DNA from: a virus
Reading direction: 5' to 3' (one strand)
IMG/VR virus record: IMGVR_UViG_3300025671_000579
Span: 1 to 22,733 of that record
DNA length: 22,733 nucleotides
Shown here: one piece after another, positions 13,118 through 19,391 of the stretch
Numbering within the stretch: the stretch's first letter is position 1
Layout: each line of letters opens with the position of its first letter
Notes under the pieces: model-generated
Told to the model about the DNA's origin: nothing
What the model saw: the letters and a program-made list of their open reading frames with translations, nothing else
Databases searched by the model: none
Made by a program: the position numbers and the translations under genes

Positions 13118-13591
13118 ATGAAACTCAATCCAAGATTCAGCATCCAGGAGTATGTGCCGAAATCAGTCTATGAGAAGTACGGAGATAAATCCGTCAGGTT
13201 CATTTCAGCGGCATTGATCAAGGCAGATTATCAGCTACTTAAAGACCTTGAAAAGCATTATGGAAGGGAAATAACCTGCTCCATTAATACATGGGCATTT
13301 GGAGGAGACAGAAATTACTCAGGATTGAGAGTTGAAGGAGAACCATATTACAGACCTCTGAGCCTACATTCAAGCGGTTCTGCATCTGACAAGATTTTCA
13401 ATTTCAAGGATACCGGAGCAAGAGTTGACAACAGGAAGATCTATGAGTTCATCATTGCAAATGATGTCAAGTACTATGATCTAGGCATCAGAAGAATGGA
13501 GGACATCAGAGATGCTTCAAGTTGGATTCATTGGGATACGTGTTGGACTCCGAATGCGTACACCAAGATGATTCAAATCGTTAGAGCATGA
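13118..13591 (+). CDS. Endolysin: peptidase M15 (L-Ala-D-Glu / VanY type)
   Basis: 157 residues. It carries the M15 zinc site: SLHSSGSASD (H84, D91) matches SxHxxGxAxD, and WIHWD (H138) supplies the third zinc ligand. The general fold of these enzymes is about this size, and the protein has no signal peptide, so it needs a holin. It would cleave peptide stems of peptidoglycan. The upstream holin-like and coiled-coil genes and the downstream spanin-like gene complete a lysis module. The next gene overlaps its stop (ATGA). The active-site motif gives strong support; the exact bond cleaved is not determinable here. Confidence 0.88.
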   Translation: MKLNPRFSIQEYVPKSVYEKYGDKSVRFISAALIKADYQLLKDLEKHYGREITCSINTWAFGGDRNYSGLRVEGEPYYRPLSLHSSGSASDKIFNFKDTGARVDNRKIYEFIIANDVKYYDLGIRRMEDIRDASSWIHWDTCWTPNAYTKMIQIVRA

Positions 13592-15412: not shown

Positions 15413-15442
15413 TCAGTAATCAATAATCAAAATCAATAGACA
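15407..15442 (+). repeat. 36-base direct repeat, copy 2 (leader of recT)
   Basis: Identical over 36 bases to 15037-15072 and ending at the first base of the recT ATG. Each copy precedes a separate early gene at the same distance, one to two bases from its ATG, which argues for shared expression control rather than chance. Confidence 0.7.
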
Positions 15443-16302
15443 TGAGTACGCAATTAACAGTAAATCAGTATTTCAACTCAGAATCTGTTCAACAGAAGTT
15501 TGAGAAAATGCTCGGACAGAAGTCAGCAGGATTCATCTCCTCTGTACTTCAGACGGTAAACAACAACAATCTACTTGCAAAGGCAGATCCTGCAACAATT
15601 CTAAACGCTGCTGCAACTGCTGCATCATTAGACCTTCCGATCAATCAAAGTCTCGGACGAGCATGGATTGTACCATTCAAAGGTCAGGCACAGTTTCAAA
15701 TAGGATACAAGGGATTCGTTGAACTGGCTCAGAGGTCAGGACGTTACAAATCAATCAATGCGATTGAAGTATATGAGAATCAATACAACGGATTCAATGC
15801 GTTAACAGAACAAATTGATGCAGACTTCTCGGTTGATGGAACAGGAAAGGTTGTCGGATACGCTGCTCACTTTGAGTTGCTGAACGGATTTACAAAGACG
15901 GTATTCTGGAGCAGAGAAAAGGTTGAGCAACACGCTAAAAGATTCTCAAAGAGTTTCGCAAATGGACCGTGGAAAACAGACTTCGATGCAATGGCCAAAA
16001 AGACGGTTCTCAAATACACTTTGAGTAACTGGGGAATCCTCTCCATCGAGATGCAAACGGCTCACTTGGCAGATCAAGCGGTCATTCCGGAAGATGGAAA
16101 ATATCAATATGCTGATAACGTGATTGATATTGAGGCAAACAACGCGGAGGAGGAAACTGCAAGAGTTGTGAAATTTCTTGAAAAAGTGAAATCAATTGAC
16201 GATCTTGATATGCTTGAGGATTCGTTATCTGGAGAAGAAATCACAGAGGATGCTCAACAAGCGATAGACGAAAAAAGAGAATCACTAACTGTTAAAGCGT
16301 AA
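15442..16302 (+). CDS. recT: RecT-like ssDNA annealing protein
   Basis: 286 residues of the RecT/Bet family. The N-terminal half matches the family well: AAATAASLDLPINQSLGRAW, PFKGQAQFQIGYKGFVELA and SGRYKSINAIEVYENQ. The C terminus is acidic and probably disordered. It anneals complementary strands at double-strand ends in phage recombination. It lies four bases from the YqaJ-like exonuclease, forming the usual RecT-exonuclease pair that generates and anneals 3' tails. Confidence 0.9.
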   Translation: MSTQLTVNQYFNSESVQQKFEKMLGQKSAGFISSVLQTVNNNNLLAKADPATILNAAATAASLDLPINQSLGRAWIVPFKGQAQFQIGYKGFVELAQRSGRYKSINAIEVYENQYNGFNALTEQIDADFSVDGTGKVVGYAAHFELLNGFTKTVFWSREKVEQHAKRFSKSFANGPWKTDFDAMAKKTVLKYTLSNWGILSIEMQTAHLADQAVIPEDGKYQYADNVIDIEANNAEEETARVVKFLEKVKSIDDLDMLEDSLSGEEITEDAQQAIDEKRESLTVKA

Positions 16303-16306
16303 GACC

Positions 16307-17140
16307 ATGAAAACTAGAACAGACTTCACCGATTACAAATTTCGCTGCTCATCATTGGGCAAGTTGATGACAGGCGTTAAGCCTAATCTCACAGACAAGC
16401 AATCAGAACTCCTTGAGACTTTGATTGCTAAACAACGAGGAGGCAACATCACCGACAAGCAGATCATCACTCTCGGACAACTAATTGAGAAACGTGATCA
16501 GCGTCCAACTTTATCAGCAACAACCAAGAACTACCTTGAGCAACTTCACAAGGAGGAGGTATTTGGTAAGCGCGAAGAACTCCGATCAAAGTATCTGGAC
16601 AAAGGGATTCAAGTTGAGGAGCAATCAATCACGCTATACTCTGAATTGACTGACACGCTTTTCATCAAGAACAAGGATCGAAAGTCAAACGCTTTCATAA
16701 CTGGAGAACCTGATAACACTCAAGGCAAAATTCGAGACATCAAATCTTCTTGGAGCTTGTCAACATTTCCTATGCATGATGACCGATTGACGAACATGGA
16801 CTATTGGTGGCAGTTGCAAGGATACATGGAGCTGTTTGACCTTGAAGATTCAGAGTTGATCTATTGCCTTGTTGATACTCCAGAGGAATTGATCAATGAT
16901 GAGATGAGGAGAACAGGTTGGAAGTCAGGATTCACGGCAGACATTCCGGATGATCTTGAGGCAGAGATCAGAAGTAACATGACGTTCTCAGACATTCCTG
17001 CTGCATTGAGAGTGAAAGTCTTTCCTGTTCAAAGAGACAGACTTGCAATGCGACAACTTGAGGAGCAGGTCATCAGATGCAGAGCCTACATGAACAATTT
17101 GTCTGTTAAGTTAGGCGGGTATATCCAGGAGGAGGCATGA
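16307..17140 (+). CDS. YqaJ-like phage exonuclease (PD-D/ExK fold)
   Basis: 277 residues. Visible nuclease motifs: DKGIQVEEQSITLYSE (~98-113), ITGEPDNTQGKIRDIKSSW (~131-149) with D136 and DIK (144-146) as the PD-D/ExK core, and WWQLQGYMEL (~167-176) as the Q-containing motif. These are characteristic of YqaJ/lambda-exonuclease-type enzymes, which resect double-strand ends to give the 3' strand RecT anneals. It follows recT directly. The cassette island begins right after its stop. Confidence 0.85.
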   Translation: MKTRTDFTDYKFRCSSLGKLMTGVKPNLTDKQSELLETLIAKQRGGNITDKQIITLGQLIEKRDQRPTLSATTKNYLEQLHKEEVFGKREELRSKYLDKGIQVEEQSITLYSELTDTLFIKNKDRKSNAFITGEPDNTQGKIRDIKSSWSLSTFPMHDDRLTNMDYWWQLQGYMELFDLEDSELIYCLVDTPEELINDEMRRTGWKSGFTADIPDDLEAEIRSNMTFSDIPAALRVKVFPVQRDRLAMRQLEEQVIRCRAYMNNLSVKLGGYIQEEA

Positions 17141-17165: not shown

Positions 17166-17293
17166 GGTCAACGGTTACAGATATGAAAAATAGGGCTTTG
17201 ACACCATCGACATTTCACCCGAAAACGGAAACAGCAGACCGTGATAATACTGCGCGACCCAAGTTCGCCCGTTTTTTATATCTGATGTTGTGT
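17166..17293 (+). other. attC-like recombination site 1 (hairpin)
   Basis: The stem CAGATATGAAAAA (17178-17190) pairs with TTTTTTATATCTG (17272-17284) at 12 of 13 positions, continued by GGGC/GCCC inside. The stem is preceded by GGTCAAC (17166-17172, 6/7 match to the attC RYYYAAC box) plus a five-base spacer. It is followed by an AT dinucleotide and GTTGTGT (17287-17293, 6/7 match to GTTRRRY). This order of outer box, spacer, inner stem and outer box is that of an attC site. Its GGTCAAC box has no matching partner upstream, so the cassette it belonged to may be lost. Confidence 0.5.
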
Positions 17294-17301
17294 AATGTTT
17301 T
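17287..17301 (+). repeat. Cassette left arm, pairs with 17802-17816
   Basis: GTTGTGTAATGTTTT matches the reverse complement of 17802-17816 at 14 of 15 positions. The two arms enclose both small genes at 17323-17789. In a circular cassette they would pair as the outer stem of attC-like site 2. Confidence 0.7.
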
Positions 17302-17322
17302 TTATTTTCTAAATATATAATC

Positions 17323-17475
17323 ATGAAAAATCACAATTTCTGGCATTACTTGTCAGACGGAAAAATGCACCATTTTCAATTAGTTAGTGAAAATGGAGAG
17401 TTGAAGTACTACGTTGACGGAAAATTGGTTCAGTCAATTTCTGACACAAATAATTCAAAGGCTAAAAAGTCTTGA
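17323..17475 (+). CDS. Small cassette-borne hypothetical protein
   Basis: 50 residues starting MKNHNFWHYLSDGKMHHFQL, then alternating short strands (ELKYYVDGKLVQSI) and a Lys/Ser tail. His/Trp-rich and polar. It lies inside the inverted repeat, on the same strand as the attC-like site. It overlaps the opposite-strand gene at its 3' end by 46 bases. No family recognised. The codon use is more AT-rich than neighbouring phage genes. Confidence 0.45.
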   Translation: MKNHNFWHYLSDGKMHHFQLVSENGELKYYVDGKLVQSISDTNNSKAKKS

Positions 17476-17789
17476 CCTTGAATATTTTCAGTGTCAATTT
17501 TCATCAATTTGACTTCAATTTCCTTGTCGTCATTTTTGATTGTTTTAACGTTGTTCGACTTAAAGTCAAGAGATATTTGCTTAGTGTCAGAAGTATGTTG
17601 GATAAACGTAAGCTGTCTAATCTCCACACGTTCATTACCGTCTTTTTCTTTATAGTCGGCAACGCTAGGATTTACAAGGATTGTCACAGCATCTTTACTA
17701 TATGGAACGTGAACTTGAAACGTAAGTCCACATGCACTGTCAATTGGAGGCTGAAAGGGTGATTGCACTAATCTTAATAATTTGCTCAT
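17430..17789 (-). CDS. Cassette-borne hypothetical protein, minus strand
   Basis: 119 residues, predicted all-beta: repeating strands (TFQVHVPYSKDAVTILVNPS, VEIRQLTFIQHTS, KQISLDFKSNN, KEIEVKLMKIDTE) and an acidic C terminus (ELFVSEID). No signal peptide, membrane segment or enzyme motif. Its ATG lies near the right arm of the cassette inverted repeat and it runs against the surrounding early genes. With the converging 50-residue gene it could form an antitoxin/toxin-like or anti-defence pair, which is speculation from the layout. Confidence 0.55.
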   Translation of the reverse strand: MSKLLRLVQSPFQPPIDSACGLTFQVHVPYSKDAVTILVNPSVADYKEKDGNERVEIRQLTFIQHTSDTKQISLDFKSNNVKTIKNDDKEIEVKLMKIDTENIQGQDFLAFELFVSEID

Positions 17790-17801
17790 GTGTCGTTTTT
17801 T

Positions 17802-17816
17802 AAAATATTACACAAC
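17802..17816 (+). repeat. Cassette right arm, pairs with 17287-17301
   Basis: AAAATATTACACAAC, whose last seven bases (ACACAAC) match the attC RYYYAAC box at 6 of 7. A six-base spacer separates it from the inner stem at 17823. Confidence 0.7.
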
Positions 17817-17900
17817 GACCCGATCGTATGACGCGAGCAATGACGAAGGAATTGCGGGGAGTCATCCGACTTTGGGCTTGCGTTATACGATATGTTAACG
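17810..17900 (+). other. attC-like recombination site 2 (hairpin)
   Basis: The inner stem pairs 17823-17838 (ATCGTATGACGCGAGC) with 17876-17891 (GCTTGCGTTATACGAT) over 16 positions, the two non-Watson-Crick positions being G-T. A second small stem ATGAC/GTCAT lies inside (17840-17844, 17861-17865). Outer boxes are ACACAAC (17810-17816) and GTTAACG (17894-17900). Spacers are gacccg on the left and AT on the right, the same AT as in site 1. If the preceding cassette circularised, GTTGTGT from its left end would replace GTTAACG and pair exactly with ACACAAC. Confidence 0.6.
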
Positions 17901-17913
17901 AATGTGTTGCAAG
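17894..17913 (+). repeat. Left arm of a second gene-flanking inverted repeat
   Basis: This 20-base arm, from GTTAACG to TTGCAAG, matches the reverse complement of 18208-18227 at 18 of 20 positions. The two arms flank the 79-residue gene. Confidence 0.75.
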
Positions 17914-17945
17914 AACTTAAACTGAGATAACTAAATAACCACAAG

Positions 17946-18185
17946 ATGAAAGAGAAAATTATCGAGATTCTTAAAAGTGAAGAAGAACCTATGGGTCAAC
18001 TACTATTTATGGAAAACTACGGAAAGGTTGCCGATAAGGTAATCTCGTTATTTTCTCAGCCCAATGGAGGAGATCGGGTCGTTAACGAAAATGAGCCTCA
18101 AAAAAAGGTTTGTAGAAATTGTGGTATTGACAAAGCTACTGTGATTGGACTATGTAATGACTGCTATGGATGTGGTGCGCCTTGA
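17946..18185 (+). CDS. Small zinc-ribbon-like protein in second cassette
   Basis: 79 residues. The N-terminal part is helical (KEKIIEILKSEEEPMGQLLF, NYGKVADKVISLFSQ); the C-terminal part has CRNCGIDKATVIGLCNDCYGCG, with Cys pairs that could bind one zinc. Such small helix-plus-zinc proteins are common in Bacteroidetes phages, usually with no known role. It lies inside an 18/20 inverted repeat and 45 bases after attC-like site 2, so it may have been acquired as a cassette. Confidence 0.55.
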   Translation: MKEKIIEILKSEEEPMGQLLFMENYGKVADKVISLFSQPNGGDRVVNENEPQKKVCRNCGIDKATVIGLCNDCYGCGAP

Positions 18186-18207
18186 CACAAACCGATTGAG
18201 GCGGTTG

Positions 18208-18227
18208 CTTGCAACATTTTCGTTAAC
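18208..18227 (+). repeat. Right arm of the second gene-flanking inverted repeat
   Basis: From CTTGCAAC to CGTTAAC, complementary to 17894-17913 at 18 of 20 positions. No long hairpin follows; the next GTTAAC is at 18249-18254 after 21 bases. A complete attC-like site is therefore not seen here, and this may be a degenerate one. Confidence 0.75.
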
Positions 18228-18267
18228 TACCGCATAAAAACAACAACTGTTAACTAACTGAAAGCCA

Positions 18268-19068
18268 ATGAAAACTACAACTAAAATTCGGAAGCAACTA
18301 GATTTGTTCCGAACGTATTTGACAGCTAAGCACTACTCAAAAAGAACTATTGAGCAGTATTCATCAATACTGAAAATGTTCTTGTCTGATTTCAATGAAT
18401 ACCCAAGAGACATTACAGCAAATCAAATTACAGAATGGATAGCATCAAAGGGCAATGCCTCAACTATGGGGCAGTATCGCGGAGCTTTGAAGAACTACTA
18501 TGATCACGTTGTCGGACAATCAAACAAGTTCAAGAAAATTCCATATCCGAAGAAAGAGAATCGCGTTCCTCAAATAATGTCTCAAGAAGTAGTCATTGAG
18601 AGAATCAACTCAATTGATAATTTGAAGCATAGAATGGTCGTGTCAGTTCTGTACGGTGCAGGAATCCGGTTATCTGAATTACTTGATTTAAGAATAACCG
18701 ATATTGACGGAGACCGAAACACGTTATTCATCCGACACGGTAAAGGAGGAAAGGACAGGGTTGTTCCAGTGTCATCTAAACTGATTCAAGACCTTAGAAT
18801 ATACTTCAAACAGTACCGTCCAACATCATACCTTTTTGAAGGTCAATTCGGTGGAATTTATTCGTCTACGAGCGTTCAGAACATCTGTCGAAAGTACATG
18901 AAATGCAATCCTCATCTATTAAGGCATTGCAATCTCACTCATTTGGTTGAGTCTGGTGTTGATATTAGTGAAGTGAGCAAAAGAGCAGGACACGCCAAGT
19001 TGGAGACCACTATGGTTTACAATCACATAGCAACCACATTCAACCCTATTACACTTCTAGCGGCTTGA
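18268..19068 (+). CDS. Tyrosine recombinase (XerC/D-like integrase)
   Basis: 266 residues. The N-terminal SAM-like core-binding domain (~10-90) precedes a catalytic domain with the full set: R134 (YGAGIRLSELLDLR), K159 (HGKGGKDRVVP), H216-x-x-R219 (NPHLLRHCNLTHLVESG), H242 (AGHAKLET) and the nucleophile Y251 (MVYNH). It is compact and shows no obvious extra helix of the kind integron IntI enzymes carry, so it is XerC/D-like rather than IntI. It lies 40 bases after the cassette island and overlaps RusA. It could be the phage integrase, or act on the attC-like sites upstream; the sequence cannot decide. Confidence 0.88.
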   Translation: MKTTTKIRKQLDLFRTYLTAKHYSKRTIEQYSSILKMFLSDFNEYPRDITANQITEWIASKGNASTMGQYRGALKNYYDHVVGQSNKFKKIPYPKKENRVPQIMSQEVVIERINSIDNLKHRMVVSVLYGAGIRLSELLDLRITDIDGDRNTLFIRHGKGGKDRVVPVSSKLIQDLRIYFKQYRPTSYLFEGQFGGIYSSTSVQNICRKYMKCNPHLLRHCNLTHLVESGVDISEVSKRAGHAKLETTMVYNHIATTFNPITLLAA

Positions 19069-19391
19069 CCAGGATAAACATAAAGCCATTAAGCGTAAAT
19101 GAGTGCTGGCAAGGTCGCAGGTTTCGAACTGATAAGTATAGAGCCTATCAAAAAGAAGTATCGTTAAAACTGAAACCGATGAAAGTAGGGAGTGGCAAAT
19201 TGTCACTATCTCTTCGTTTCGGGTTATCAAGTAAAAATGCCGACATAGACAACCCAATCAAAAGTTTTTTGGATTGTTTACAGGCCAAATACGGCTTCAA
19301 CGACAAGCAGATCTACCGATTGACAGTTGAAAAAGAGGATGTTCCGAAAGGCTCTGAGTACATCGAGTTCACTTTTTCGGAGTTAATTTGA
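19065..19391 (+). CDS. rusA: RusA-like Holliday junction resolvase
   Basis: 108 residues with the RusA layout: NADIDNPIKSFLDCLQAKYGFNDKQIY gives the conserved acidic residues D60, D62, D70 and D80 needed for metal-dependent cleavage. It starts with TTG overlapping the integrase stop, supported because the N-terminal motif NIKPLSVNECWQGRRF begins right there. It resolves Holliday junctions produced by RecT-type recombination and replication. Confidence 0.82.
   Translation: MTRINIKPLSVNECWQGRRFRTDKYRAYQKEVSLKLKPMKVGSGKLSLSLRFGLSSKNADIDNPIKSFLDCLQAKYGFNDKQIYRLTVEKEDVPKGSEYIEFTFSELI

Follow-up and report, generated by a model that had tools for sequence, protein, structure and literature searches.

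The window, that is, the whole stretch of DNA analysed here, is a 22.7-kb viral record that encodes tail, head and early genes. Positions 17166–18227 consist of two gene cassettes, two attC-like hairpin sites and a hairpin-free attI-like site. On one side they are flanked by an exonuclease gene, with a RecT gene just upstream of it, and on the other by the gene for a XerA-like tyrosine recombinase, the stop codon of which is overlapped by the start of a RusA gene (Table 1). The initial annotation had recognized only a single integron-like cassette in this region; there are two, together with the attI-like site and the recombinase.

Table 1. Positions of the array, its cassettes and the neighbouring genes in the window
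Feature	Position	Strand	Basis
RecT	15442–16302		Pfam
Phage exonuclease gene, array flank (context)	16307–17140	+	PHROG 5715 exonuclease
Block absent from L004, L005 and L007	17129–19387		blastn boundaries 17128–17132 and 19387–19388
attC-like site 1	17166–17293	+	Repeat search, chain detector, R1 model at the same coordinates
Cassette 1	17288–17894		G^TT of site 1 to G^TT of site 2; R''/R' complementarity, chain score
Cassette 1 short ORF, 50 aa	17323–17475	+	Weak Laminin_G_3 similarity, below cut-off
Cassette 1 main ORF, 119 aa	17430–17789	-	ORF list
attC-like site 2	17810–17900	+	Repeat search, DNA fold, chain detector; weak R1 match
Cassette 2	17895–18227		Complementary ends; chain to attI-like half-site
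Cassette 2 ORF, 79 aa	17946–18185	+	Zinc-ribbon-like CxxC pairs; same direction as phage genes
attI-like simple site	18208–18241 (end approximate)		Comparison of recombinase-proximal array ends, chromosomes and phages
Tyrosine recombinase, XerA-like, 266 aa	18268–19068	+	Family profiles, tree, alignment
RusA-type Holliday junction resolvase	19065–19391	+	Pfam PF05866

Hairpin sites and cassettes in the window

Both hairpin sites read, in order, an R'' box (..AAC), 5 or 6 nt, the two arms of an inner stem, AT and an R' box (GTT..). Site 2 comprises the R'' box ACACAAC (17810–17816), the spacer GACCCG, an inner stem (17823–17838/17876–17891), AT and the R' box GTTAACG (17894–17900). Its stem is 16 nt long and is bordered by the 6-nt spacer on one side and by AT on the other, exactly as the initial annotation had described; it is 88% complementary and contains two G·T wobbles 5 bp apart. 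Site 1 is built in the same way (...GTCAAC-GGTTA-CAGATATGAAAAA...TTTTTTATATCTG-AT-GTTGTGT), with the R'' box at 17166–17172, the spacer GGTTA, the inner stem at 17178–17190/17272–17284 and the R' box GTTGTGT at 17287–17293; the repeat search and the chain detector both recovered this upstream counterpart, with its AT before GTT, as had been proposed.

Across cassette 1, GTTGTGTAATGTTTT (17287–17301) and AAAATATTACACAAC (17802–17816) are complementary at 14 of 15 positions, and the complementary ends claimed for the 17287–17816 segment are therefore real. Across cassette 2, GTTAACGAATGTGTTGCAAG (at 17894) and CTTGCAACATTTTCGTTAAC (18208–18227) are complementary at 18 of 20. Folding was applied to the hairpin that had been postulated for the circularized segment: with the segment ends joined, site 2 forms a DNA hairpin of −23.9 kcal/mol (z −5.8), which none of 200 shuffled sequences equalled. 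The chain detector asks for two inner stems and for complementary R'' and R' boxes at opposite ends of the cassette. Its score for the two-site chain is 41.5, against a maximum of 30 among 2000 first-order shuffles of the 3.5-kb region, in agreement with the earlier view that two such sites exceed chance.

The features of a single-strand hairpin attC, namely an unpaired spacer, an inner stem and a variable loop, are present, based on the fold of site 2 and on the alignment of site 1 with the covariance model R1 described below. The integron criterion of tandem cassettes with complementary R''/R' ends and an AAC/GTT core is met; that of a GTTRRRY box is not, the R' boxes being GTTGTGT and GTTAACG.

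The 119-aa protein of cassette 1 has one homolog in a bacterial genome (E 1.3e-14, 36% identity), which lies outside any array. In that genome (L317, 375–2231) the homolog precedes a gene whose product resembles, by eye, TIR plus TPR repeats, and this neighbour hints at a defence-related role for the cassette-1 protein. No match to the 79-aa ORF of cassette 2 was obtained in PHROG or Pfam, searches of phage records and further viral contigs did not turn up the cassette proteins, and an Rfam search found nothing. When the cassette region was searched as DNA against 395 Bacteroidota genomes, all matches were short and due to chance; one of these (L238) nevertheless pointed to an array. The region also contains a perfect 12-nt inverted repeat (17814–17825/18072–18083; AACGACCCGATC/GATCGGGTCGTT) of unexplained role, and GTTAACGAAAATG at 18081, after this repeat, is a possible second R box for cassette 2.

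The recombinase and the attI-like end

All six catalytic residues of tyrosine recombinases (R-K-H-R-H-Y) are present in the window protein as R134, K159, H216, R219, H242 and Y251. NF040815 (XerA) is the best-matching NCBI family for this protein and for the array recombinases of phages and chromosomes, all of which have the same domain content. The window recombinase differs from XerA as defined by NF040815 in scoring 177.9 bits, under the curated cut-off of 220; the chromosomal array enzymes score 196–241 bits. It is distant from the other array enzymes (40% at best), and seven residues are deleted ahead of its HxxR motif. The established role of XerA is chromosome dimer resolution at dif; the words 'integron integrase' form part of the NF040815 family name. 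The PHROG call for the window protein is integrase, and its relative in Polaribacter phage Leef_1 is annotated likewise.

The IntI-specific insertion of about 40 residues, present in eight of eight IntI, is absent from the window, phage and chromosomal array recombinases. Against the IntI model TIGR02249 the window protein scores 144 bits, in two pieces and under the cut-off of 265, and an IntI clade with support of 100/100 excludes the array recombinases from it in the tree. IntI is defined by its specific additional domain (PMC9668308, PMC2426708). Because the recombinase here lacks this domain, the system is not a classical integron.

The attI-like site consists of the R box CGTTAAC (18221–18227), TACCG and CATAAAAAC, without a hairpin, and the array ends 41 nt from the start of the recombinase gene. 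At the recombinase-proximal end of other arrays, chromosomal and phage-borne, 5–6 nt and a TATATAC-like sequence come after the last R box, again with no hairpin, and in most loci this end lies 34–115 nt from the recombinase gene. The attI criterion has comparative support in about ten loci, and the window sequence, AAC-TACCG-CATAAAAAC, matches the consensus only loosely. The conserved half-site pattern, used as a viral probe, matched three contigs, one of them (L244) by chance.

Related arrays in phages and Flavobacteriaceae

L002 and L003 are near-identical relatives of the window phage. In L004, with flanks 96–98% identical to the window, and in L005 and L007 (about 80%), the exonuclease gene is followed by a gene of ~300 nt and then by the equivalent of window position 19387 onward, the 2.26-kb block being missing. 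The ~300-nt gene is nuclease-like by eye, with no match in a Pfam search. In L006 (74% in RecT), four sites of the same type lie between the exonuclease gene and a small nuclease-like gene. The initial annotation had suggested a comparison of related phages with and without the insert. The insert is indeed lacking in L004, L005 and L007, but, judged from these alignments, the slot is variable and exchange among close relatives involves the whole 2.26-kb block, RusA included, and does not take place at cassette boundaries; no second phage with different cassettes at the same junctions was found. L005 also has three R1 sites on its minus strand (7–741), elsewhere in the genome, to the left of where window 13585 has its homolog.

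Relatives of the window recombinase are found in L139, which has five sites, in Polaribacter phage Leef_1, and in a prophage-like locus of Polaribacter sp. MSW5 (L089). In Leef_1, at least four sites lie immediately upstream of the integrase, and the record contains one further integrase-like stretch, a weaker one. In the window and in all three of these relatives an array of this type lies upstream of the recombinase, which directly adjoins the attI-like end. At least eight R1-type sites exist in Polaribacter phage P12002L; a XerA-like recombinase was not found in the records of P12002L and L006, both of which carry sites.

The covariance model R1 was built from 32 chromosomal (bacterial) sites only, and the R' box of its site family is GTTR plus variable bases. 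The attC-type covariance check proposed in the initial annotation succeeded for site 1, which R1 found at its exact coordinates with 32.1 bits (E 7.5e-5 in 195 kb), but not for site 2; with 8.5 bits (E 0.18 in 2.5 kb) this was the region's second-best match and is not significant alone.

A profile of the array recombinases matched 188 of 299 Flavobacteriaceae-group genomes at a strict cut-off. Thirteen of the best 20 recombinase loci had chained arrays of 2–12 sites and four more had model matches (17 of 20); among 20 control regions taken from these genomes, none had a chain by the detector and two had model sites. At 20 further recombinase loci, R1 gave 101 matches in 18, with none in 20 further controls. 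The pooled figures are sites at 35 of 40 recombinase loci versus two of 40 control regions. In whole-genome searches, R1 sites were found in 262 of the 299 genomes; some arrays are far from any recombinase, and not every site-bearing genome has a XerA match at the strict cut-off. On one chromosome (G412 contig 1, 2226080–2786953) the R1 sites extend across 560 kb, which hints at very large or multiple arrays; site counts per genome are lower bounds where they reach 11.

IntI as the driver of these sites was considered and rejected: R1 sites were present in none of 20 IntI loci, and IntI above the cut-off was absent from all 299 Flavobacteriaceae-group genomes, the same search giving 105 of 395 in a phylum-wide sample.

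Crossovers are visible in two chromosomal arrays. In L280, the cassettes after the sites 13118–13251 and 18685–18816 are identical from (C)GTT on, and the 120 nt preceding (C)GTT are only 32% identical, identity changing from 32% to 100% exactly there. In L340, a duplicated block is identical up to CCGTT and then divergent. Crossovers at the GTT core, as read from such duplications, are the expected trace of integron recombination; they were seen in chromosomes and not in phage.

The orientation of the main ORFs differs between the two settings: in chromosomal arrays they point away from the recombinase (68 versus 4), whereas in phage arrays they point toward it, along the phage genes (13 versus 1). 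The Fisher test (p 4e-11) is optimistic, because the arrays are related and share cassettes. The window has one ORF of each kind, that of cassette 1 (119 aa, minus) on the strand usual in bacterial arrays, and that of cassette 2 (79 aa) on the plus strand. The idea that phage cassette ORFs always run through R' with GTT in frame was discarded, since it fails in L006.

Nature of the array

The system shares with sedentary chromosomal and mobile integrons its tandem cassettes, the complementary R'' and R' boxes with an AAC/GTT core, attC hairpins that have a spacer and a variable loop, and crossovers at G^TT; beside the recombinase it has an attI-like simple site, of which the match in the window is loose. 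It differs from them in that the array recombinase falls outside the IntI cluster and is without the additional domain of IntI (I2 region), in an R' box of GTTR plus three variable bases in place of GTTRRRY, and in unequal spacers (5–6 and 2–3 nt). This anatomy, the occurrence of the site family beside related recombinases, the GTT-precise crossovers in chromosomes and the lack of an IntI domain are observations. The anatomy is integron-like but the recombinase fails the IntI test, and, as far as sequences alone can tell, the system is a variant with a XerA-like recombinase. We consider it probable that the segment is a phage-borne integron-like unit, in which a XerA-type recombinase and the attI-like site next to it serve an array of two cassettes and two attC-type hairpins; the integron-like reading in the initial annotation gains support from the R1 match to site 1, from the other arrays in related phages and from the bacterial GTT-core crossovers. 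By analogy with integrons, cassettes would probably be exchanged at the G^TT core, and a folded single-stranded attC (or a circularized cassette) would recombine with attI or with a second attC. We infer, without having observed recombination, that these sites are the targets of the recombinase, that the enzyme works in the phage and that its substrate is single-stranded.

The phage setting, for which the initial annotation knew of no parallel, has precedents: Qi et al. 2023 (PMC9892861) reported phage attC arrays, in the form of integrons and CALINs, and according to that study one attC of P12002L is recombined by IntI1 in E. coli; its identity with the R1 sites recognized here is not established. 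The window array resembles the arrays of that study in having attC-type cassettes on a phage, the P12002L sites being of R1 type, and differs from P12002L in possessing a XerA-like recombinase and an attI-like site, no such recombinase having been found in P12002L.

Three other explanations have to be weighed. The array may be a CALIN, composed of host-array cassettes; any movement of these would then depend on a host enzyme, and the phage recombinase would serve phage integration or be decaying. The sites of P12002L, L005 and L006, where no XerA-like recombinase was found (L005 was outside that search), agree with this, as do the divergence and 7-residue deletion of the window recombinase and the second integrase-like stretch in Leef_1; the position of the recombinase next to the attI-like end in the window, Leef_1, L139 and L089, the sites at 35 of 40 sampled chromosomal recombinase loci and the intact catalytic residues do not, and we hold a CALIN to be possible but rather unlikely. 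Still less probable is an ordinary phage integrase, with the half-site as attP and the hairpins as accessory sites or transcription terminators. It would suit the annotation in Leef_1, the PHROG call and the location in the phage early region, but not hairpins chained by R''/R' complementarity over whole gene lengths in arrays of 2–12 sites, nor the absence of the gene from the closest phage relatives, nor the same arrangement in the chromosomes of many genomes, mostly outside obvious prophages. Unrelated inverted or MITE-like repeats lying side by side by chance can hardly be entertained, even in an AT-rich region where short two-copy repeats are common, given that none of 2000 shuffles reached the chain score, that the independent model R1 finds site 1, that gene-bearing segments of differing content share the same end logic, and that the breakpoints are at GTT.

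Beyond the integron-like unit in the window, we lean, by a narrow preference, toward a second kind of integron in Flavobacteriaceae and their phages, in which XerA-like recombinases that never gained the single-strand-binding domain of IntI recombine folded attC-like hairpins, and a mobile phage copy captures host cassettes and supplies them to a recombination operon of the phage. The open-access papers searched do not describe the Flavobacteriaceae system (subscription papers and preprints were outside the scope), and the one complete integron that IntegronFinder 2 reported for Bacteroidetes is that of Salinibacter ruber (PMC9024848). If this reading is true, nearly nine in ten of the sampled Flavobacteriaceae-group genomes carry cassette arrays, and IntI-keyed integron software would not report them as complete integrons. 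The I2 helix of IntI is tied to single-strand recombination, and integron integrases are thought to have shifted from double- to single-strand recombination by gaining it (PMC7790495). A natural, abundant attC-like hairpin system without the I2 region makes the role of I2 in single-strand recombination directly testable. Cassettes of the same type travel on phages, and one plasmid array holds erm(F).

Similar arrays with shorter-stemmed sites exist upstream of XerA-like recombinases without the IntI insertion in two bacteria of the Peregrinibacteriota lineage (L105 and L102). In two Acinetobacter tet(X3) plasmids (L086 and L382), a truncated XerA-like recombinase (tpnF) is directly upstream of tet(X3), which is placed like a first cassette; inspection by eye revealed no distal R box to match. 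In the Flagellimonas marinaquae plasmid NZ_CP092416.1 (L085, 1886–4000), erm(F) and a dihydrofolate-reductase-family gene are enclosed, cassette-like, by R boxes that chain with 9.5 and 10.5 of 12 pairs, in a region that adjoins a XerA-like recombinase and contains one R1 site (1892–2022).
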